Shown: piece by piece, positions 225-24,957 of the stretch
Numbering within the stretch: the stretch's first letter is position 1
How the letters are laid out: each line of letters begins with the position of its first letter
Assembly: GCA_023251435.1 (NCBI GenBank)
Contig: JAHEYU010000003.1
Coordinates: forward strand, 87,089-151,088
DNA: 64,000 nucleotides
Origin: Bacteroidota bacterium
GTDB taxonomy: Bacteria > Bacteroidota > Bacteroidia > Bacteroidales > Prolixibacteraceae
Reading direction: 5' to 3'
The notes under the pieces: generated by a model
Databases searched by the model: none
Told to the model about the DNA's origin: nothing
The model's input: only the letters and a program-made list of their open reading frames with translations
Program-made: the position numbers and the translations under genes

Positions 225-1916
225 ATGAACTTACTAAAATCAACATTCACGCTGTTTACAGCAATTCTGTTTTCAGCCTGTGCTATTTCGCAGCCTGCAG
301 CCCTAAAACAACAAACTGAAGATTTGTACAAAGGAATAGAGTTTCAAATGCCCCGTGTTCAGGAACCGGTTATTCCGGCCAATTCGGTTTCAATTACCGA
401 TTTTGGTGCGCAAAGCGGTGGACAGGTGCATTGTACACAGGCATTTGCCGATGCAATTGCTGCCGTCTCGAAAAAAGGCGGTGGCCGGGTGATTATTCCC
501 CGCGGTACATGGTTAACAGGGCCAATTACCCTGAAGAGTAACATCGAACTGTTCACCGAAACCGGCGCAGTGGTGGTATTCAGCACCAATAAAGATTTGT
601 ATCCGGTGGTTGAAACCAATTTTGAAGGATTCAACACTTTCCGCTGCACTTCGCCAATCAATGGCCGTAATCTTGAAAATATTGCTCTTACCGGAACAGG
701 TATTTTTGACGGTTCAGGTGAAGTTTGGCGTGCTGTTAAAAAGGAAAAACTGACTGAATCGCAGTGGAAGAAACTGATTGCTTCGGGTGGTTTGGTGAGC
801 GAAAACGGGAAAATCTGGTATCCTTCGGAGCAATTCAGGGCAGGTGAAAAAATCGCGGAAATGAATGTGGTACGTTCACTAAAAACAAAAGCGGAGTTCG
901 AGCAGATTCGGGATTTTCTTCGTCCGGTGATGGTCAGCCTTATTTCGTGTAAAAAAGTGCTGATTGATGGACCGACATTTCAGAATTCTCCGGCCTGGAA
1001 CATTCATCCGCTGATGTGCGAAGATTTCACCATGCGAAATACGACCGTTCGCAATCCGTGGTTTTCGCAGAATGGTGACGGAATTGACATCGAATCGTGC
1101 AAGAACAGCATTATTCACGATTGCAGTTTCGACGTGGGCGACGATGCGATTTGCATTAAATCGGGCAAAGACAAAGATGGACGCGACCGCAAAATGCCCA
1201 ACGAAAACCTGATTGTAAAAAACTGCATTGTATATCATGGTCATGGTGGGGTAACTGTTGGCAGCGAAATGTCGAGTGGAGTGCGCAATTTACATGTTTC
1301 AAATTGTACGTTTATTGGGACCGATGTAGGTTTGCGCTTTAAAAGCAACCGCGGACGGGGTGGGGTAGTCGAGAATATTTTTATTTCAAATATAGAAATG
1401 ATGAATATTCCAACCCAGGCCATTTCCTTCAATCTGTATTACAGCGGAAGGTCGGTTTCCGAAGATCTTGAAGCAGGAGAAAATGGTGACGCTCCCAAAT
1501 TGTTGCCAGTTACCGAAGAAACTCCGCAGTTTAAAAATATTTTTATTCGCGATGTGAACTGCAAGGGTGCCATGACGGGAATATTCCTGCAAGGTTTGCC
1601 CGAAATGAAACTTGAAAATATTGAACTCACCAATATTCAGATGGAAGCCAACTATGGCCTTGTGTGCATAGACGCTGATCGGGTGAAAATCAAAAATCTG
1701 AAACTAAAAACCAAAAACTATCCGGTAATTGATCTTCAAAATAGTTCGAATGTTTCGGTTGACGGACTTGTTTCTTCGGAAGGATTACCGCTGATCAAAG
1801 TTTCAGGTTCGCAAACCGGTGCAACCCACCTGAAAAATGTTGGCATCACCCATCCTGAAACCCAATTGGTTGTAGGGAAAGAAGTTCCGAAGAATGTGGT
1901 TAAATTAGGAAAATAG
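225..1916 (+). CDS. GH28 polygalacturonase
   Basis: A 563-residue secreted glycoside hydrolase expected to cleave alpha-1,4 bonds of homogalacturonan or rhamnogalacturonan in the periplasm or at the cell surface. The N-terminus is a signal sequence with a Cys at residue 19 (FSAC), so it may be a lipoprotein. The body is a right-handed beta-helix with the GH28 signature blocks in order: NGDGIDIESC, DDAICIKSG, HGHGGVTVGSEM and RFKSNRGRGG. These hold the three catalytic Asp residues, the His and the basic residue of the family. It follows a pectinesterase tail and precedes a CE12-like esterase in a pectin cluster. The start at 225 is supported by the signal sequence; a hairpin element sits in the leader. 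Confidence 0.93.
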   Translation: MNLLKSTFTLFTAILFSACAISQPAALKQQTEDLYKGIEFQMPRVQEPVIPANSVSITDFGAQSGGQVHCTQAFADAIAAVSKKGGGRVIIPRGTWLTGPITLKSNIELFTETGAVVVFSTNKDLYPVVETNFEGFNTFRCTSPINGRNLENIALTGTGIFDGSGEVWRAVKKEKLTESQWKKLIASGGLVSENGKIWYPSEQFRAGEKIAEMNVVRSLKTKAEFEQIRDFLRPVMVSLISCKKVLIDGPTFQNSPAWNIHPLMCEDFTMRNTTVRNPWFSQNGDGIDIESCKNSIIHDCSFDVGDDAICIKSGKDKDGRDRKMPNENLIVKNCIVYHGHGGVTVGSEMSSGVRNLHVSNCTFIGTDVGLRFKSNRGRGGVVENIFISNIEMMNIPTQAISFNLYYSGRSVSEDLEAGENGDAPKLLPVTEETPQFKNIFIRDVNCKGAMTGIFLQGLPEMKLENIELTNIQMEANYGLVCIDADRVKIKNLKLKTKNYPVIDLQNSSNVSVDGLVSSEGLPLIKVSGSQTGATHLKNVGITHPETQLVVGKEVPKNVVKLGK

Positions 1917-16700: not shown

Positions 16701-16736
16701 AAATTGCCCGAATAAACCATTCGGGCAATTTTTTTA
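16701..16736 (+). terminator. Terminator after the SSS transporter
   Basis: AAATTGCCCGAAT and ATTCGGGCAATTT form 13-bp arms around a short loop, followed by T7. The following phosphoesterase starts at its very end (16736). Confidence 0.85.
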
Positions 16737-17659
16737 TGTACGATATTATTGGTGATGTTCATGGTCATGCCGATCAGCTAAAAAGCCTGTTGAAAAATAT
16801 GGGTTATAAGCTTACCGGTGATTTCTATTCGCATCAGAACCGCAAAGCTGTATTTGTTGGCGATTTCATTAATCGTGGTCCAAAAATCAGGGAAACTATT
16901 CTCATAATCCGAAAGATGGTTGAGAAGGGTTCGGCTTATGCCATATTGGGAAATCATGAAATGTACGCAGTTTTGTATTATCTGCGCGATATTGAAGGTA
17001 AATATTATAAAAAGCGAATACCAAAGTACCAGCTGCAGATAAATCAAACGCTCAGCGAATTTGTTCCACACAAAGAAGAATTAAAAAGTCACTTAAAATG
17101 GTTGCGAACCTTACCAATGTTTCTCGATTTTGGCGATATCAGGGTTATTCATGCTTGTTGGGATGATAAAAATATTAAACTTATCAAAGAGGCGATTACT
17201 GAACCAAAACTTTCTAAAACCATTTTGCGCGAAATTGCCCTGAACGAAACCAGATTTTCTGAAAGCTTTTGGGAATCCTGTAAAGGTGTCGATTTTCAGC
17301 TACCCAAAGACTTACTTGTTTTTGATGATGAAGGACGCCCACACCGTTCATTTCGGATGAAATGGTGGGCCAATCCGGAGGGAATGACTTTCAACGAAAT
17401 TTCACTTGAGAGTCGGTTTGCACTTCCGGCCTATACCATACCCAATGAGATTATTCAAAAAAGGAATCCCTATCCCCCAAATGATCCGATTGTTTTCTTC
17501 GGACATTACTGCTTAAATCAGTGTTGCGGTATTTTGACTGAAAATCTTTGTTGCGTTGATTCATGCGTTACCCGTACCGGTAAATTACTGGCATACAGGT
17601 GGGATGGTGAAAAAAAATTGAAAAAAGATAATTTTATTCTTTCAGATTCTGCAGATTAA
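16736..17659 (+). CDS. Calcineurin-like metallophosphoesterase
   Basis: A 307-residue cytoplasmic phosphatase of the PPP/ApaH-like group. All metal-ligand motifs are seen in order: GDVHGH (6-11), GDFINRGP, GNHE, a central His (IHACWDD) and GHYCL near the end. Such proteins hydrolyse phosphoserine, diadenosine tetraphosphate or RNA cap-like ends; the exact substrate cannot be read from sequence. The ATG directly abuts the T-tract of the preceding terminator, so the transcript must begin within or very near that hairpin or be read through. Confidence 0.85.
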   Translation: MYDIIGDVHGHADQLKSLLKNMGYKLTGDFYSHQNRKAVFVGDFINRGPKIRETILIIRKMVEKGSAYAILGNHEMYAVLYYLRDIEGKYYKKRIPKYQLQINQTLSEFVPHKEELKSHLKWLRTLPMFLDFGDIRVIHACWDDKNIKLIKEAITEPKLSKTILREIALNETRFSESFWESCKGVDFQLPKDLLVFDDEGRPHRSFRMKWWANPEGMTFNEISLESRFALPAYTIPNEIIQKRNPYPPNDPIVFFGHYCLNQCCGILTENLCCVDSCVTRTGKLLAYRWDGEKKLKKDNFILSDSAD

Positions 17660-17870
17660 GTGTTTGATATTTAGTAGAATATGAGGTTTTTAAAATACAC
17701 TTTTTAAACTTTAATTATTTTAATTTGACCTATTGCGGGGATAAAAAGAAAGGCTATATTTGCAAAGCCTTTTGAGAAACGGATTTCAGGAGGTTTGTTC
17801 TTTAAAAGTGCTGTAAATTTTGAAAAAACAACCTGATTTTTATTCGATCGGGTTAATTCGAAAATACTCT

Positions 17871-17944
17871 GGTGCGGTAGTTCAGTCGGTTAGAATATCG
17901 GCCTGTCACGCCGAGGGTCGCGGGTTCGAGTCCCGTCCGCACCG
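17871..17944 (+). tRNA. tRNA-Asp (GTC), copy 1
   Basis: The acceptor arms GGTGCGG and CCGCACC pair perfectly. The D-arm, anticodon stem-loop with GTC (GCCTGTCACGC) and T-arm CGGGTTCGAGTCCCG are complete, with G as discriminator. 74 nt; CCA is not encoded. Confidence 0.97.
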
Positions 17945-17987
17945 CCCTCTCAAAATTTACAATACTAGATCAAAAATACTGAAAATT

Positions 17988-18061
17988 GGTGCGGTAGTTC
18001 AGTCGGTTAGAATATCGGCCTGTCACGCCGAGGGTCGCGGGTTCGAGTCCCGTCCGCACCG
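17988..18061 (+). tRNA. tRNA-Asp (GTC), copy 2
   Basis: Identical in sequence to copy 1, 43 bp downstream, and followed directly by a terminator. The two are probably one transcript. Confidence 0.97.
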
Positions 18062-18062
18062 C

Positions 18063-18089
18063 AAAAAGGGAGATTTATCTCCCTTTTTT
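18063..18089 (+). terminator. Terminator of the tRNA-Asp pair
   Basis: AAAAAGGGAG and CTCCCTTTTTT form a stem around ATTTAT with a T6 tail, starting 2 nt after the second tRNA. Confidence 0.85.
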
Positions 18090-18093
18090 CATT

Positions 18094-18369
18094 ATGGAAT
18101 ACTTCGTTTATATTATTGAATCAGAGCAATCAGGTATTTTTTATAAAGGATACACTTCATATCCTTTATTGCGACTTGAAGAACATAACCGGGGACAGAG
18201 TCGGTACACCTCGGGCAAAGGTCCTTTGAATATGGTTTATCTCGAAAAAATGACAGATAAGAGAGCTGCCTTAATAAGGGAAAAACAATTAAAAAGAGTC
18301 AATGGCAATTATATCAGAAGGCTCATTATTTCGGATTTAAATATTATGGGTCAATTCATTTCTTCATAG
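18094..18369 (+). CDS. GIY-YIG nuclease domain protein
   Basis: A 91-residue single-domain protein of the UPF0213/YhbQ-like GIY-YIG group. It shows FVYIIESE with YKGYTSYPLLRLEEHN (the GIY..YIG equivalent is VYI..YKG, with Arg in LLRLEEHN) and YTSGKGPLNMVYLE with ALIREKQLK. These small proteins are very common in Bacteroidota, often beside tRNA genes, and can be mobile. Its molecular role is unknown; DNA nicking or structure-specific cleavage is the family expectation. It lies between the intact tRNA-Asp pair and a rearranged tRNA-Asp copy. Confidence 0.85.
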   Translation: MEYFVYIIESEQSGIFYKGYTSYPLLRLEEHNRGQSRYTSGKGPLNMVYLEKMTDKRAALIREKQLKRVNGNYIRRLIISDLNIMGQFISS

Positions 18370-18408
18370 AGTACCAATTTTAACTATTTTTTGCTGAACT
18401 CAGATTTG

Positions 18409-18473
18409 TCGGTTAGAATATCGGCCTGTCATCTCGCTTTGAGGCGAGACGGGTTCGAGTCCCGTCCGCACCG
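18409..18473 (+). pseudogene. Rearranged tRNA-Asp fragment
   Basis: The segment 18409-18431 is identical to the D-loop-to-anticodon part of the intact tRNA-Asp genes, and 18449-18473 to their T-arm and acceptor 3' half. In between, the 12 bp CGCCGAGGGTCG of the real gene are replaced by an 18-bp self-complementary word TCTCGCTTTGAGGCGAGA. The 5' acceptor strand is absent, so it cannot fold into a tRNA. It looks like the duplicated att end of an integrated element. Confidence 0.75.
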
Positions 18474-18485
18474 CCTTTAATAACT

Positions 18486-18513
18486 AAAGTCCTTGAAATT
18501 CAAGGACTTTTTT
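18486..18513 (+). terminator. Terminator after the tRNA fragment
   Basis: AAAGTCCTTGAA and TTCAAGGACTTT form a tight stem followed by a T-run, 12 bp after the fragment. Confidence 0.75.
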
Positions 18514-18570
18514 ATTTGGTGTAAAACGTAGTGTAAAACCAAATGGGTTGTGGTGTAAAATATTTCCTAT

Positions 18571-18873
18571 TCAACTACTTCGGAAATCCTGTTCCTTTTG
18601 AAATCTTCGGTGTTCAGTAAACCATGTTTGATTGACATTTTTTTTTGTCTTAATGATGGTTTTGTTTGAATAATCTACAATTTTACTAACGTCCCGTATC
18701 GTTAAAACCTTCTTCAAATTTTTGATAATCCTTTGTGTCAGGTCTTTGTTTAGAAAATCTTTTTCATTTTCGTTTGTACCTTCAGGTCTTCCTAATTTTC
18801 CACCCCTTTGAACATAGACCAAACGACCTGTCATGGTTAGTTCTTTAATGTTTTCCAACTCCATTTCGTACAT
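18571..18873 (-). pseudogene. Serine recombinase (resolvase/invertase), C-terminal fragment
   Basis: The 100-residue ORF carries the linker word GKLGRPEGTNENEKDFLNK and a following HTH-like stretch (VLTIRDVSKIVDYSNKTIIK). These are typical for the DNA-binding tail of Bacteroidota serine recombinases of the Hin/Tn3 resolvase type. The catalytic N-terminal domain with the serine nucleophile is absent: just upstream on this strand the sequence changes to a SusC fragment. It is therefore a remnant of an integrated element. Words similar to integrase-gene ends (GTGTAAAACGTAGTGTAAAACC) lie next to it at about 18520. Confidence 0.65.
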
Positions 18874-18887
18874 TACAGACGGAAATG

Positions 18888-19295
18888 GTAGTTATTCGAT
18901 TTCCAATTTTTCCTGAAAATTCGACATTGCTGTTTTCGTTTGTGGGGATGAAGGCACAGGAGATTTCTACAGGTGGAAAGACTACGATTGATGTTAGGCT
19001 TGTTGGAGATGCCATTGGAATTGATGAGGTCGTGGCAGTTGGTTATGGGACGCAACAGAAAGGGAATTTATCAGGAGCTGTGGCCTCTATTAGTGGTGAT
19101 TTAATGGCAAAACGCCCTGTAACTAACCCTGCTGCCATGATTCAAGGTTTAGCTCCAGGGGTTCGTGTCGTTCAAGGATTAGGACAACCAGGTAATGAAG
19201 CAATCACCATTCGTGTTCGTGGACAATGCACTTTTTCATCTGCTGGTTCCGATCCGTTAATTCTGGTCAATGGAGATTCGGTGTTTGGTTCCTGA
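18888..19295 (+). pseudogene. SusC/TonB-dependent receptor fragment (plug region)
   Basis: Reads LLFSFVGMKAQEI, then VDEVVAVGYGTQ-like IGIDEVVAVGYGTQQKGNLS and a plug segment with APGVRVVQGLGQPGNEA and LILVNGDSVFG. This is the carboxypeptidase-like domain end plus TonB plug of SusC proteins. The signal region and the entire beta-barrel are missing, and the frame ends at TGA 19293-19295. The left end meets the recombinase remnant and the right end a fucosidase-like remnant, so it is a broken piece and not a working receptor. Confidence 0.8.
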
Positions 19296-19301
19296 CCATG
19301 T

Positions 19302-19556
19302 GAGGCAAAAAGCGACAACTGGGGATTTATCACCTGCAAAAAGCAGGGAGCGAATAAGAATCGGTTGTATTTCAACATTGTCAATTGGCCTGAAAACCTT
19401 GAGCTGGTAGTAAAAGGAATCGATCGGGTACCAGAGAAAGTCTATTTGCTTGAAACCGGACAACAACTTGATTTTATCCCTTATCCCGAAATGGAATGAC
19501 CATCTGGTTACTGAACAATCCAATTGATCCAAATTTGACGCTGGCGGTCGTTGAAT
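19302..19556 (+). pseudogene. GH29 alpha-L-fucosidase C-terminal remnant (frameshifted)
   Basis: Translation gives SDNWGFITCKKQGANKNRLY, then FNIVNWPENLELVVKGIDRV, ending at a TGA near 19499. A second frame continues with MTIWLLNNPIDPNLTLAVVE. The pattern W-G-x-x-T-x-K...LYxxVxxWPxxxxL is shared with the C-terminal beta-sandwich of the GH29 proteins further down this window. It is a decayed fragment; whether it came from the same gene as the N-terminal piece at 22835 cannot be told. The following 425 bp (19557-19981) show nothing else. Confidence 0.5.
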
Positions 19557-19981
19557 GATATGATTTTAAAATGATGATAGAATGAATTTCTTAACCCTCA
19601 TTGCGGTTATTCATCCATAACAAGCTGACAGTGTGGTTTTATTCTTAAAAGTTTCGTCAGTATGCCACACGAATTATTTTCGGGGCATTGGGATTTGTCT
19701 ATATTTTAATTTGGTGCAAATTATACCAAATGCAATTCTCAATAAATCAACTCCGGCATCCTCATCATCAATTCCGTTTCGTTGAAATTTTACATCAGAG
19801 GTTGCGAATCAATGTTTCCCATGTTGAAAATAAGTTTTAGGAGCGAATTCCCCGATTGATATTACAAGGAGTAAAAAGTACAAAAGTTGTTGAGAAAGAT
19901 ATTCAACTGGACAGTTTTTTTTATTCCGATAATTTTTCAGGAATATATTTTACTTTTAGACCAAATAAATTATCAAAACCA

Positions 19982-20620
19982 ATGAAAACTATTCTTATTA
20001 CCGTGCTTGTGTTTTTGGCAGTTTCTGGCTTTGCTCAAAAAAAACAATCGTTATTTAATGGCAAAAACCTGAAAGGCTGGACAATTTATGTGAATGATCC
20101 GAAAATAGCTCCTGAAAATTACTTCTACGTGAAAGATGGGGTGATTGAAACGATCGGTGTACCGGTGGGTTATATGCGTACGAAAAAGGAATATTCCAAT
20201 TACCGCTTGCATGTAGAATGGCGTTATCCTGAAAATCCAACCAATAGTGGAATCATGGTACACACAAACGGCCCCGACAAGATTTGGGTAAGCCATTATC
20301 AGGCGCAATTGAAACATGAAAATGCCGGCGATTTTATTGTGCATGGAGTGGGAGAGAAAGCTACTATTCGCGATAGCGTTTATGTTTCGACGGATACAGT
20401 AAAACCAGTTGTTCCCAAATTACTCCCTTCGAACGAAAATCCTGCCGGAGAATGGAATAGCTACGATATTACCTGCAAAGGAACTACGGTTGAAGTAAAA
20501 GTAAACGGATTACTTCAAAATACCGCCACCAATTGCTCGTTGACTAAAGGTGGAATTAGCTTACAGGCTGAAGGTTCCAAAATCCAATTCCGAAATTTGT
20601 GGATCGAAAAGATAAAATAG
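19982..20620 (+). CDS. DUF1080 (3-keto-disaccharide hydrolase-like) secreted protein
   Basis: A 212-residue protein with a signal peptide (ITVLVFLAVSGFAQ) and a concanavalin-like jelly roll of the DUF1080 family. Visible words are SLFNGKNLKGWTIYV, YRLHVEWRYPENPTNSGIMV and GEWNSYDITCKGTTVEVKVNG. Members are periplasmic and some hydrolyse 3-keto-glycosides. The ORF track starts at 19856, but the ATG at 19982 begins the signal peptide and the upstream part lies in non-coding sequence. It stands alone between pseudogenes, so it is either a survivor of a former locus or separately expressed. Confidence 0.85.
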   Translation: MKTILITVLVFLAVSGFAQKKQSLFNGKNLKGWTIYVNDPKIAPENYFYVKDGVIETIGVPVGYMRTKKEYSNYRLHVEWRYPENPTNSGIMVHTNGPDKIWVSHYQAQLKHENAGDFIVHGVGEKATIRDSVYVSTDTVKPVVPKLLPSNENPAGEWNSYDITCKGTTVEVKVNGLLQNTATNCSLTKGGISLQAEGSKIQFRNLWIEKIK

Positions 20621-21160: not shown

Positions 21161-22414
21161 TTAAACCCCAAGCGAGGCAAGTGAAATAACATTTATACCG
21201 TCAGCTCGTGTGTAACTTATTCCTGTACCTGTTATGATATTCAAAGATTGAGGTGCCTGTGTTTTTGTTGTATCAATTACAGCGGCAAATTTAGTTAGAT
21301 TGGCGGCGGCGACGTCAATTTGCCCCGTTCCGAGTTTTATTTCAAAGGCAGCATATTCGCCGGAATATTTTTGTACGATTACATCTACTTCGAGACTTGA
21401 AGAATCGCGGTAGTGATACACTTTTGCATCATTTGCCTGCGCATACACGCGAAGCTCGTGTGTGGCAAGCGACTCAAAAAGAAAGCCAGTGAATTTCAGG
21501 TCGGAAAGTAATGATTTTTTATTTGCGCCGAGTGCAGCTACGGCAAGCGAAACATCTGTGAAATGACGTTTGGGAGCTTTTCTGAGCAGAGCAGAAGAAC
21601 GTAAATGTGTATTCCATGCGGGCTGATTTTCAATAATCATAAGACGTTCGAGCGCATCGAGATAATCGTAGATCGTCGGGCGTGAAACGGTGACACTGTC
21701 TTTTTCAAAAATGTCGGTTTCTATCGAAACAGTTTCGACGGTTGTGGCGGTATTTCTTGCCAGCGACCGAAGCAAATTAAGTACTTTTGCATGGTTGCGT
21801 TTCACATTTGAAACACGGCTCATATCTGCTTCGGCAAGCAAATCAATATATGCACGGTTTATGTCAGTAGCCTGTGTAATACTTTTATTTATCAAACCGG
21901 GGAAACCACCGGTTATAATTTTCTCAATAATAAATTCCAAATCAGTTGCTTCATCGTAAATATCAACCCTACCACCTTCCAAAAGTGCTTTCAAACTGAT
22001 TTTTCCTGACGAATGTCCTAATTCCTGCCAACTCATCGTGCGCATATCGAGTGTGGTAAACCTCCCTGCACCGGAGTGTTTCTTTGCGGTTTCGTCAGGA
22101 TTTGCCGATCCGGTAAGAATGAATTGTGCAGGTAAAGCACGTTTGTCGACTTCATGGCGGATAAGATTCCAGAGTTTGGGCTGTTCCTGCCATTCGTCTA
22201 TCAGGCGTGGCGGGTTACCAAGCAAAAGGCGGTTTGGTGAGGTGTCCATCAGCAGGGGTACCTGCGGGTCGGTATCAACCTCCAAAATACTTTTTGCAAA
22301 TTGTTTTGCAGATTCTGTTTTTCCACATGCTTTGGCACCACGAATCAGCACAGCTCCTGCCGCCTGTAATTTGCGCTGAAGTTCTGTATCGGTTATTCGA
22401 TTTACATATGCCAT
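21161..22414 (-). CDS. AAA ATPase with DUF4143 domain
   Basis: A 417-residue protein: an AAA_14 ATPase domain (about 1-180) with Walker A GAKACGKT at 26-33 and a Walker B-like LIDEWQEQPKLW. A DUF4143 nuclease-like domain follows (about 200-370), with DVIVQKYSGEYAAFEIKLG matching the PD-(D/E)xK-type pattern. The physiological role of this family is poorly known; members are frequent in mobile regions. Here it stands among pseudogenes and the AbiE pair, consistent with an accessory island. The upstream gap 22415-22834 shows no gene. Confidence 0.88.
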   Translation of the reverse strand: MAYVNRITDTELQRKLQAAGAVLIRGAKACGKTESAKQFAKSILEVDTDPQVPLLMDTSPNRLLLGNPPRLIDEWQEQPKLWNLIRHEVDKRALPAQFILTGSANPDETAKKHSGAGRFTTLDMRTMSWQELGHSSGKISLKALLEGGRVDIYDEATDLEFIIEKIITGGFPGLINKSITQATDINRAYIDLLAEADMSRVSNVKRNHAKVLNLLRSLARNTATTVETVSIETDIFEKDSVTVSRPTIYDYLDALERLMIIENQPAWNTHLRSSALLRKAPKRHFTDVSLAVAALGANKKSLLSDLKFTGFLFESLATHELRVYAQANDAKVYHYRDSSSLEVDVIVQKYSGEYAAFEIKLGTGQIDVAAANLTKFAAVIDTTKTQAPQSLNIITGTGISYTRADGINVISLASLGV

Positions 22415-22834: not shown

Positions 22835-23389
22835 ATGAATATCAGAAGATTAACGATAGTGTTTGTGCTGATCGCGGCAAATGTTTTTAATGGTTTTTCG
22901 CAAACGAAACCGATGAACGAAATGTGGGGAGAAACATCAGTTTCAGTCGATGCCTTAAAAGCTGGTCGCGGAAAACTGTTTGATGAAGGAAATTTTGGCA
23001 TGTTCATCCATTGGGGATTGTTTTCGAATTTGGGGGGTAAATGGCAGGGAAAAACGTACTACGGAATCGGTGAATGGATCATGAACAAAAATATGGCCGG
23101 TATTCCGGTGAATGCCTATAAAGAGGTCGCCAAAGAATTCAACCCCTCAAAGTTTGATGCCAAAGCCATTGCACAACTGGCCAAAGATGCCGGTATGAAA
23201 TACATCATTATCACGAGCAAGCATCACGAAGGATTTGCCATGTTTCATTCCAAAGCTGATTCGTTCAACATCGTCGATGCGACTCCTTATGCCCGCGACC
23301 CGATGAAAGAATTGTCGGCAACATGCCGCGAACTGGGTGATCCGGAAACCTCCAGTCTTGAATCCATTCACATTTATCCGATCAATTAA
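22835..23389 (+). pseudogene. GH29 alpha-L-fucosidase, N-terminal fragment
   Basis: The first about 168 residues match the other GH29 proteins here: signal peptide (VFVLIAANVFNGFSQ), FGMFIHWGLF, ITSKHHEGFAMF and DPMKELSATCRELG. After that the frame runs into an unrelated tail (DPETSSLESIHIYPIN) and stops at 184 residues. The catalytic nucleophile segment of the family (LWxD) is missing, so it is inactive as a fucosidase. The AbiE operon begins about 100 bp after the break, which suggests insertion or deletion at this point. Confidence 0.8.
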
Positions 23390-23492: not shown

Positions 23493-24125
23493 ATGGCAGA
23501 ACAACAAAGAACATATAGTAATATTCCGATGGAAATTTCGGTGCTTAGGGAAGGCGTTGCCGATTACCGCGCACAAAATAACAGAATAAGCAATATGGAA
23601 CGTTCCGGCGAACTGATTCGCATACGAAGAGGATTGTATGTAGCCGACCCACGATTAAGCAACCAGGAGATTTCGCGCGAATTAATTGCCAATAATTTGT
23701 ATGGGCCATCGTATGTGTCTTTTGAGAGTGCACTCTCTTACCACGGGCTTATTCCCGAGAGGGTAAATGCTGTAAGTTCGGCCACAATCAGAAGGGCTAA
23801 AAGCTACACTACTCCTTTGGGTTTATTCGAATTTGTTACTGTTCCCCGCGATTATTTTCATATAGGAATAGAGCAGATCATTGTTGAAAATCAATACGCA
23901 TTCCTGATAGCCTCGCCCGAAAAGGCGATTTGTGATTTAATTATAACTACTTCAGGATTAAGGTTCCAATCGGTGAAGGCTGCACGTGAATACCTGCTTT
24001 ACGACATGAGAATAAGCATAGACGAACATGAAAACTGGGATGACGAAATATTTGCACAATGCTCGGAACACAGCAGAAAGAGGCGGGAAATTAATTTTTT
24101 AAGAAAGGTTATCCAAAATGGCTGA
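23493..24125 (+). CDS. AbiEi-type antitoxin/transcriptional repressor
   Basis: A 210-residue protein of the AbiEi group of type IV toxin-antitoxin systems. The N-terminal winged helix (about 10-55; MEISVLREGVADYRAQ, GELIRIRRGLYVADP) is followed by a domain with YVSFESALSYHGLIPE and SPEKAICDLI that is characteristic of this family. It is expected to repress the operon and neutralise the partner nucleotidyltransferase without direct contact. Its stop overlaps the toxin start by 8 bp. The inverted repeat upstream is the likely operator. Confidence 0.85.
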   Translation: MAEQQRTYSNIPMEISVLREGVADYRAQNNRISNMERSGELIRIRRGLYVADPRLSNQEISRELIANNLYGPSYVSFESALSYHGLIPERVNAVSSATIRRAKSYTTPLGLFEFVTVPRDYFHIGIEQIIVENQYAFLIASPEKAICDLIITTSGLRFQSVKAAREYLLYDMRISIDEHENWDDEIFAQCSEHSRKRREINFLRKVIQNG

Positions 24126-24957
24126 TATTTTCAATCAAATGTTGTTGAGGTACAACATAAAAACAAATGAAGACAGGCAAAATGCGGTACACGAGGTAAT
24201 GCAGCAAATTTGTCTGGCAGGATTAAACAGGGCGGGTTTTTTCGACAAGGCTGCTTTTTATGGTGGCACTTGTTTACGTATATTTTATGGCCTGCGCCGT
24301 TTTTCGGAAGACATGGACTTTTCGCTGACAGAAATCGATGACAAATTCAATTTGGAGAACTATTTCGATGCCATCACAAATGAATTTACTTTACTGGGAC
24401 GCGAGGTTCAGATTCGGAAAAAGGAGAAAAGTCAGGACACGCAAATAGAATCTGCATTTTTGAAAGACAATACAGATATTGTAAATATCCGGTTTCAAAC
24501 CGACCCTTCTGTGAAAATTAAAATTGAAGTGGACAAAGTTCCTCCCTTAAAATTCAACACCGAGCATAAACTTCTGCTTTTGCCTTTTTCGTTTATGACC
24601 CGATGTTTTACCTTGCCCGGTCTTTTTGCAGGAAAAATACATGCTTTAATGTTCCGCAAATGGCGCAACCGCGTAAAGGGTCGCGACTGGTACGATTTTG
24701 AGTGGTATATACGAAACAATGTACAACTGGATTTTAACCATTTTAAAGAAAGGGCTATCCAAAGCGAAGGAATTGAATTTGAGGATTTAACACCCGAACG
24801 ATTCAAACAATTATTGAAAGAAAAAATCAATTCCACTAATATTGAAATGGTAAAAGCCGATGTTCGTAGGTTTGTTATAAACCCTCATGAGCTGGATATT
24901 TGGTCCGCAAACTATTTCCTGCAAATCACTGATATGATGAGGATTGAGTCTCAATAA
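24118..24957 (+). CDS. AbiEii-type nucleotidyltransferase toxin
   Basis: A 279-residue DUF1814-family nucleotidyltransferase. The GG (49-50) of FYGGTCLRIF and the SEDMDF at 63-68 form the GSX10DXD-like catalytic motif. KIHALMFRKWRNRVKGRDWYD gives the conserved Lys and RDWYDF motif of the AbiEii/Toxin_PAF group. The known activity of relatives is transfer of nucleotides to tRNA ends, which stops growth and can block phage. It overlaps the antitoxin by 8 bp and lies 17 bp before the GH106 gene, so it separates a broken fucosidase from an intact rhamnosidase. Confidence 0.87.
   Translation: MADIFNQMLLRYNIKTNEDRQNAVHEVMQQICLAGLNRAGFFDKAAFYGGTCLRIFYGLRRFSEDMDFSLTEIDDKFNLENYFDAITNEFTLLGREVQIRKKEKSQDTQIESAFLKDNTDIVNIRFQTDPSVKIKIEVDKVPPLKFNTEHKLLLLPFSFMTRCFTLPGLFAGKIHALMFRKWRNRVKGRDWYDFEWYIRNNVQLDFNHFKERAIQSEGIEFEDLTPERFKQLLKEKINSTNIEMVKADVRRFVINPHELDIWSANYFLQITDMMRIESQ

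Follow-up and report, generated by a model that had tools for sequence, protein, structure and literature searches.

Small GIY-YIG nuclease genes and hairpin-bearing tRNA remnants in Bacteroidota: a candidate tRNA-anchored, homing-like cassette

Transfer RNA genes are classic targets of integration, and integrative elements and islands insert into them while restoring the 3′ end of the tRNA. Integrons recombine at attC sites, which carry R″ and R′ core sites in a cassette array beside a tyrosine integrase gene (intI). Bacterial genomes also hold short, dispersed, perfect hairpins with genome-specific arms, such as the Rickettsia palindromic elements. Among GIY-YIG nucleases, Slx1 acts with Slx4 on branched DNA in repair. 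A GIY-YIG enzyme that acts on tRNA genes was described in 2026 in T-even phages: SegB is a free-standing homing endonuclease that is encoded in a tRNA gene cluster and cuts inside tRNA genes (PMC13096335). A 718-bp unit of tRNA and nuclease is amplified in tandem by homologous recombination, with microhomology between the 5′ end of the tRNA and the 3′ end of segB (PMC13096335). This is a precedent for a GIY-YIG nuclease that cuts tRNA genes and amplifies a unit of tRNA and nuclease. Here, we describe a bacterial locus in which a small GIY-YIG gene lies between an intact tRNA gene and a damaged copy of it.

The tRNA-Asp locus and its relatives

The window, i.e. the whole stretch of DNA that we analysed, covers 64,000 nt of the genome of a Bacteroidota bacterium from the Prolixibacteraceae (assembly GCA_023251435.1, contig JAHEYU010000003.1, positions 87,089 to 151,088 of the forward strand). 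A first-pass annotation had reported a tRNA-Asp pair and a third, altered copy, and we confirmed this arrangement (Table 1). The two intact genes are identical at 76/76 nt, and in the third copy a middle segment of 12 nt, CGCCGAGGGTCG, is replaced by an 18-bp hairpin, TCTCGCTTTGAGGCGAGA. The flanks of the hairpin are exact, as had been claimed, with lengths of 24 and 26 nt instead of the reported 23 and 25. The annotation was also right that part of the tRNA was swapped and overstated the part as the anticodon arm: the third copy retains the 5′ anticodon stem together with most of the anticodon loop, and what it has lost runs from the end of this loop through the 3′ anticodon stem and variable region (standard positions 38-49). 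Neither ARAGORN nor Rfam calls a tRNA in the third copy. The hairpin occurs once in the window (0.03 occurrences expected at 3 mismatches), and the pattern TCTCGC-N(0-8)-GCGAGA is found once in a pattern search of the whole 5.7-Mb genome. This is the genome search that had been proposed as a check, and the palindrome is not part of another intact gene.

Table 1. Features of the tRNA-Asp locus, in coordinates of the window.
Feature	Position	Strand	Remarks
tRNA-Asp (GTC) copy 1	17870..17945	+	intact; 5′ flank common to single-tRNA relative G018
tRNA-Asp (GTC) copy 2	17987..18062	+	intact; within the added block
Terminator-like hairpin and T-run, AAAAAGGGAGATTTATCTCCCTTTTTTC	18063..18090	+	between tRNA 2 and the GIY-YIG gene; missing from G018 (direct read, alignment)
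Small GIY-YIG nuclease gene	18094..18369	+	91 aa, lone catalytic domain; PF01541
Third tRNA-Asp copy, whole	18408-18475	+	5′-truncated
Third copy, 5′ part, GTCGGTTAGAATATCGGCCTGTCA	18408..18431	+	D-loop to anticodon loop, 24 nt exact; lacks tRNA bases 1-14
Perfect hairpin, TCTCGCTTTGAGGCGAGA, 18 bp	18432..18449	+	stands for CGCCGAGGGTCG of the intact genes, tRNA positions 38-49
Third copy, 3′ part, CGGGTTCGAGTCCCGTCCGCACCGCC	18450..18475	+	T-arm and acceptor 3′ strand, 26 nt exact
Ancestral 3′-flank terminator of the locus	18486..18513	+	also 3′ of the sole tRNA-Asp in G018 and of tRNA 2 in G020

The annotation had overlooked an open reading frame (18094-18369) that separates the second tRNA from the third copy. 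The product of this frame matches the GIY-YIG family (PF01541, E = 6.6e-14, 52.4 bits versus a cut-off of 22.6) and has the catalytic Tyr/Tyr/Arg/Glu residues that define the superfamily. Positions Y6, Y17, G19, R27, H31 and E63 are invariant across 13 relatives. An AlphaFold model based on 13 relatives (mean pLDDT 90.9) has UPF0213 BH0048 and Slx1 as its nearest solved folds, with I-TevI more distant, and consists of a bare catalytic domain with no separate DNA-recognition domain. The gene evolves under purifying selection (dN/dS of 0.07-0.27 in the genus, pooled pN/pS of 0.18 in tandem arrays). We rejected a plasmid or phage origin of the nuclease: the search returned weak matches only, all below 42% identity, in one plasmid and four phage records.

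The same locus varies between related genomes, which we designate by our own handles. A genome of the same genus (G018) has one tRNA-Asp, whose 5′ flank is that of the first tRNA of the window and whose 3′ flank, including the terminator, is that of the third copy. Because the flanks of G018 match the outer ends of the locus, everything in between is an added block, which comprises the spacer, the second tRNA with its terminator, the nuclease gene and the damaged piece of tRNA. In G012, two tRNAs and a terminator precede the GIY-YIG gene, which is followed by a tRNA piece in which the T-loop CGAGTCCCG became TCCCGAAGGCTCGGGA, and then by the same terminator again. G003 and G017 have two tRNAs and a terminator, with neither GIY-YIG gene nor remnant. 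In G021, G001 and G019 the GIY-YIG gene is present, with D-loop hairpins in the upstream pieces and T-loop hairpins in the downstream ones. Overall, the block is present at the orthologous site in G000, G012, G021, G001 and G019, and absent from G018, G003, G006, G017 and others. Such a presence/absence polymorphism characterises free-standing homing endonucleases of the SegB kind. Hairpins and nuclease also co-occur: hairpin-bearing pieces are found at all six tRNA-Asp loci of relatives with the GIY-YIG gene (G026 included) and at 1/25 of those lacking it (Fisher exact test, p = 1e-5). A few hairpin-bearing pieces have no GIY-YIG gene nearby (G020 and two tRNA-Met loci of G019). The first-pass annotation had suggested the track of an element carrying its own hairpin, and the recurrence of the third copy, GIY-YIG gene and second terminator as something that relatives either have or lack fits this suggestion.

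Beyond 18.5 kb, to the right, the window gives the impression of a patchwork. Downstream of the tRNA-Asp locus, there is a 100-aa open reading frame on the minus strand (18571-18873) with no Pfam or NCBIfam match, which by eye resembles the C-terminal helix-turn-helix part of serine recombinases. It is followed by a truncated TonB receptor plug domain lacking the barrel (18885-19295), a truncated gene with the start of an alpha-L-fucosidase (22835-23389), and an AbiEi/AbiEii toxin-antitoxin-like gene pair (23493-24957; PF13338 marginal, PF08843 E = 5e-33).

Nuclease genes, tRNA remnants and hairpins across genomes

With the window protein as the only query and a single genome for each species, our search gave 14 loci in named genomes. 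tRNA sequence adjoins the gene in all of them: an intact tRNA in 11 (isotypes Asp, Met, Ala, Lys and Phe) and only pieces of tRNA-Ala in the remaining 3. These loci include Taibaiella lutea, Algoriphagus hitonicola, several Allomuricauda/Flagellimonas and two Patescibacteria (Liptonbacteria and Roizmanbacteria). The patescibacterial loci have a mirrored order: a 5′ piece of the tRNA, whose D-loop holds a hairpin, precedes the GIY-YIG gene, and the intact tRNA comes last. One of them has an additional anticodon-arm hairpin in the 5′ piece. This mirrored arrangement occurs at tRNA-Phe and tRNA-Lys (loci L050 and L051). The palindrome CCTGCCTGCCGGCAGGCAGG of L050 is identical to that at the tRNA-Arg loci of two Bacteroidota (L065 and L182).

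Profile searches revealed related GIY-YIG proteins in 72/149 genomes of the order and in 125/198 sampled genomes of the phylum, with up to 22 copies per genome and frequent tandem arrays with a period of about 320-380 bp. A tRNA gene on the same strand lies within 250 bp of 90 of the 139 GIY-YIG loci (85 upstream and 5 downstream) and one on the opposite strand in a single case, for a rough chance expectation of 0.3% per gene; these 139 loci are the top matches to a profile built in part from tRNA-adjacent members, and the percentages are not unbiased. When the distance is extended to 450 bp, 101 loci have a tRNA, a further partial copy of that tRNA is present in 98 of the 101, and 74 have a perfect hairpin (arms of at least 6 bp) within the remnant. 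The cassette can be described as an intact tRNA, a terminator, a lone GIY-YIG gene and a redundant partial copy of that tRNA, in which an arm or loop has given way to a GC-rich perfect hairpin. It is widespread in Bacteroidota, at many tRNA isotypes, and is seen in two Patescibacteria.

Other arrangements were observed along the way. In L179 (G121, minus orientation, 661-1022), five head-to-tail repeats of 77 bp lie upstream of an intact tRNA-Val; each is the 5′ part of the tRNA with the anticodon arm replaced by TCCCGACAYGTCGGGA, where the central base is C or T and the arms are identical and paired. A GIY-YIG gene of another type, encoding 109-120 aa, is flanked by REP-like palindromes (GTCATGCCGAACTTGTTTCGGCATC) in G000 (C25:8627-8854, L068) and G017 (C36, L067), in both cases away from any tRNA. 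This is possibly a second partnership between palindromes and GIY-YIG genes.

The tRNA isotype and the position of the hairpin both follow the lineage of the nuclease. On a tree of 93 proteins and only 83 columns, the isotype of the adjacent tRNA requires 30 changes against 66.0 in shuffled data (0/200 shuffles as low), although many forks are poorly supported, near-copies inflate the clustering, and the underlying profile includes tRNA-adjacent members. Clustering is seen for each of Asp, Gly, Arg, Ser, Ala, Val and Asn, and the window protein groups with tRNA-Asp-adjacent proteins of other families. The position of the hairpin requires 28 changes on the same tree against 39.0 (0/300), 7 against 10.0 among Asp loci only (0/500), and 28 against 31.9 when shuffled within isotypes (4/300). 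For example, all members of the subclade of the window (L047, L164, L173, L181 and L208) have the hairpin at 38-49, 38-54 or 41-49. The redundant tRNA piece is altered at this lineage-specific position and the neighbouring intact tRNA is unaltered. As an association between sequences, the nuclease gene adjoins its presumed target and its apparent specificity is inherited with the lineage, as for SegB-like enzymes.

Hairpins are far more frequent in the remnants than expected by chance. Out of 107 distinct remnant inserts of 12-30 nt, 77 are perfect hairpins with arms of at least 6 bp, whereas shuffled inserts give a mean of 1.9 and a maximum of 6. The hairpin replaces exactly the anticodon arm (27-43) in remnants of tRNA-Ala, Val, Met, Leu and Pro; in tRNA-Asp it can cover 38-49 or 41-49, which takes in the loop end, the 3′ anticodon stem and the variable region; and in other remnants it replaces part of the T-arm (50-57 as in L142, 56-64 as in L066) or the D-loop (12-18, 16-23). 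The segment replaced in the window is also swapped in L173 (TCCCCAAAGCATTGGGGA) and L181 (TCTCGTCACGAGTGACGAGA), while in L164 positions 38-54 of tRNA-Asp gave way to TCTCGCCCAAGGCGAGA. The third copy had been described as more than a simple duplicated tRNA end. This is borne out, and chance duplication of a tRNA end is rejected, by the exchange of the same segment for other hairpins in distant genera. Each of the seven hairpins in the position class of the window is fully paired over 7 base pairs; at pairs 3, 5, 6 and 7, both partners have changed. Hairpin sequences differ between lineages and pairing is preserved, i.e. there is compensatory change. One would expect decay of the hairpins if nothing required or produced pairing, and pairing is kept in all seven.

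A probable homing-like cassette and competing explanations

We think it probable that the locus carries a small selfish cassette whose downstream end is the third copy, and that this cassette is anchored at a tRNA gene and spread by a GIY-YIG nuclease in a homing-like manner. We infer the mobility of the cassette, the site cut by the nuclease and the role of the hairpin from the patterns above. The nuclease would make a homing-type cut in the cognate tRNA gene. Repair of the break from a copy bearing the cassette would use the conserved tRNA pieces as homology arms, and one intact tRNA would be rebuilt every time. The hairpin in the leftover piece, placed at the cut or recognition site, would remove or mask the target of the nuclease, and might also keep this piece from functioning as a tRNA or from undergoing recombination with the intact gene. 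Its sequence would be drawn from a genome-specific pool of palindromes, and its position would be set by the lineage of the cassette.

Some observations sit uneasily with this scheme. In classical homing, a cassette destroys its own site, and this logic holds only in part here, since the intact tRNA retains the presumed target. Masking of the site does not account for the requirement of a paired hairpin, because a plain substitution would destroy the site too. Our guess is that the enzyme may read structure, as tRNA arms and hairpins can both extrude; the modelled Slx1-like fold leaves this open. It also counts against the cassette that the nuclease is nearer to Slx1/UPF0213 than to I-TevI and lacks a DNA-recognition domain, that some hairpin pieces have no GIY-YIG gene, and that hairpins of the consensus type are dispersed away from tRNAs.

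The last two points are those expected if the hairpins were mobile palindromes, similar to REP or to Rickettsia palindromic elements, that are tolerated in redundant tRNA pieces, the GIY-YIG gene being a bystander or a separate tRNA-adjacent gene. Each genome has 10-53 palindromes of the form TCCCGA-N-TCGGGA and 0-3 of the reversed pattern, and the outer consensus T-C-C-C-G is common to 85 distinct hairpins. In G019, copies inside and outside tRNA pieces share TCCCGAG arms. One hairpin of this genome, TCCCGAGTACTCGGGA, lies inside a match to a cobalamin riboswitch (L097, G019:C13:39900-41100; hairpin at 534-549, match at 477-679, minus strand). Hence, palindromes of the TCCCGA type also sit in structured RNAs. 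Against this explanation, whole arms or loops are replaced at fixed boundaries (27-43, 38-49, 50-57), the position of the hairpin tracks the nuclease lineage, hairpins accompany the GIY-YIG gene at tRNA-Asp loci, and the hairpin of the window is unique in its own genome. We regard it as unlikely, if the most serious of the competitors. A high-copy REP/REPIN in the strict sense is rejected for the window, where TCTCGC..GCGAGA is single in a genome with 53 palindromes of the TCCCGA type.

The hairpin might instead work in RNA: the remnant would be co-transcribed with the mRNA of the nuclease or with the tRNA precursor, and the hairpin would block its folding as a tRNA or its mispairing with the real one. 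That the anticodon arm (27-43) is replaced exactly in remnants of tRNA-Ala, Val, Met and Leu, and that pairing is conserved, does suggest that structure matters, and every part of the cassette is co-directional with the tRNA. But the RNA fold of the window remnant is no better than that of shuffled sequences (z = -0.92), and the hairpin is incompletely formed in its predicted minimum-energy fold. Moreover, the 5′ acceptor strand is missing from most of the remnants that lie downstream of the gene, and terminators stand between the remnants and the intact tRNA. We consider a role in RNA rather improbable.

Least credible, and in our judgement very improbable, is an att site or scar left at tRNA-Asp by an integrative element with a tyrosine recombinase, the hairpin marking the crossover. 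The status of tRNA genes as integration targets and three GTGTAAAAC-like direct repeats just downstream, directly past the ancestral terminator (18518-18560), would speak for it, but the repeats are largely shared with G018 (the first two are found there), which has no third copy. No integrase was found in the open reading frames at 16736-20620 and 21161-22414, whose products are a phosphoesterase, the GIY-YIG protein, the 100-aa protein, the TonB plug fragment, a 3-keto-disaccharide hydrolase and an AAA/DUF4143 protein. In place of a recombinase, the linked gene is a GIY-YIG nuclease in successive lineages. The first-pass annotation had proposed recombination between two tRNA-like sites, which is contradicted by this lack of an integrase among the neighbours checked, by tRNA sequence on both sides of the hairpin, and by hairpins that differ per lineage and sit in the D, anticodon, variable or T region in relatives. 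Nor is there the uninterrupted direct repeat of the tRNA 3′ end that integrative elements leave: the 18-bp hairpin interrupts the repeat, which continues on both sides. An integron-like site, for which it had suggested a check, is not supported either: the palindrome occurs nowhere else in the genome, and the gene linked to it encodes a GIY-YIG nuclease. For attC proper, there is no integrase among the neighbouring genes checked and no match to an attC family at the Rfam gathering thresholds.

The tRNA-anchored cassette may have a wider reach. More tentatively, and here we lean slightly to doubt, it would represent a broad and as yet undescribed kind of minimal mobile element among Bacteroidota and Patescibacteria, in which a lone Slx1-like GIY-YIG nuclease recognises one tRNA gene, spreads with universally conserved tRNA sequence for homology arms, always rebuilds an intact tRNA and tags the leftovers with an interchangeable hairpin at a position set by the lineage. 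If so, a very common and so far unexplained small GIY-YIG gene would be the engine of a selfish element, and an account would be at hand for the dead tRNA pieces with hairpins that lie next to tRNA genes and are passed over by automatic annotation. It would also provide a compact natural system in which isotype specificity, target arm and masking by hairpins can be read from the sequence and put to the test, and would tie the story of the phage SegB, a GIY-YIG nuclease that amplifies tRNA genes, to bacterial chromosomes.

Comparison with known systems

It is possible that these cassettes are a categorically new class of element. Free-standing GIY-YIG genes near tRNAs are already known, and the new part is the hairpin-marked, isotype-specific tRNA remnant. 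We found no description of GIY-YIG genes with such remnants in the open-access literature searched. A term search of a 2006 survey of GIY-YIG proteins returned no mention of Bacteroidetes or of such a linkage to tRNA genes (PMC1564403), and the parts of the SegB account considered do not mention hairpin-substituted tRNA remnants (PMC13096335).

The elements that insert into tRNA genes resemble the cassette in keeping one intact tRNA, with a redundant tRNA piece at the far end. They differ from it in that the cassette has no integrase, its unit is of about 0.3-0.4 kb, remnant sequence flanks the hairpin on both sides, and a mirrored form with a 5′ piece exists. We know of no REP, REPIN or Rickettsia palindromic element with fixed positions in tRNA remnants that are set by the lineage of a neighbouring nuclease. 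The hairpins themselves are like REP/REPIN in being short, dispersed and perfect, with arm sequences specific to the genome (PMC3116915). UPF0213 and Slx1 are nearest to the GIY-YIG group described here in sequence and fold (1zg2, 1ywl and Slx1), but, unlike Slx1, the group consists of lone domains, is multi-copy and is linked to tRNA genes. Finally, the cassette shares with SegB a small free-standing GIY-YIG gene that adjoins tRNA genes (PMC13096335). Unlike SegB, it resides in bacterial genomes of the Bacteroidota and Patescibacteria, encodes a protein of only about 80-110 aa, is co-directional with one tRNA isotype per lineage, and is accompanied by tRNA remnants in which a hairpin was substituted.
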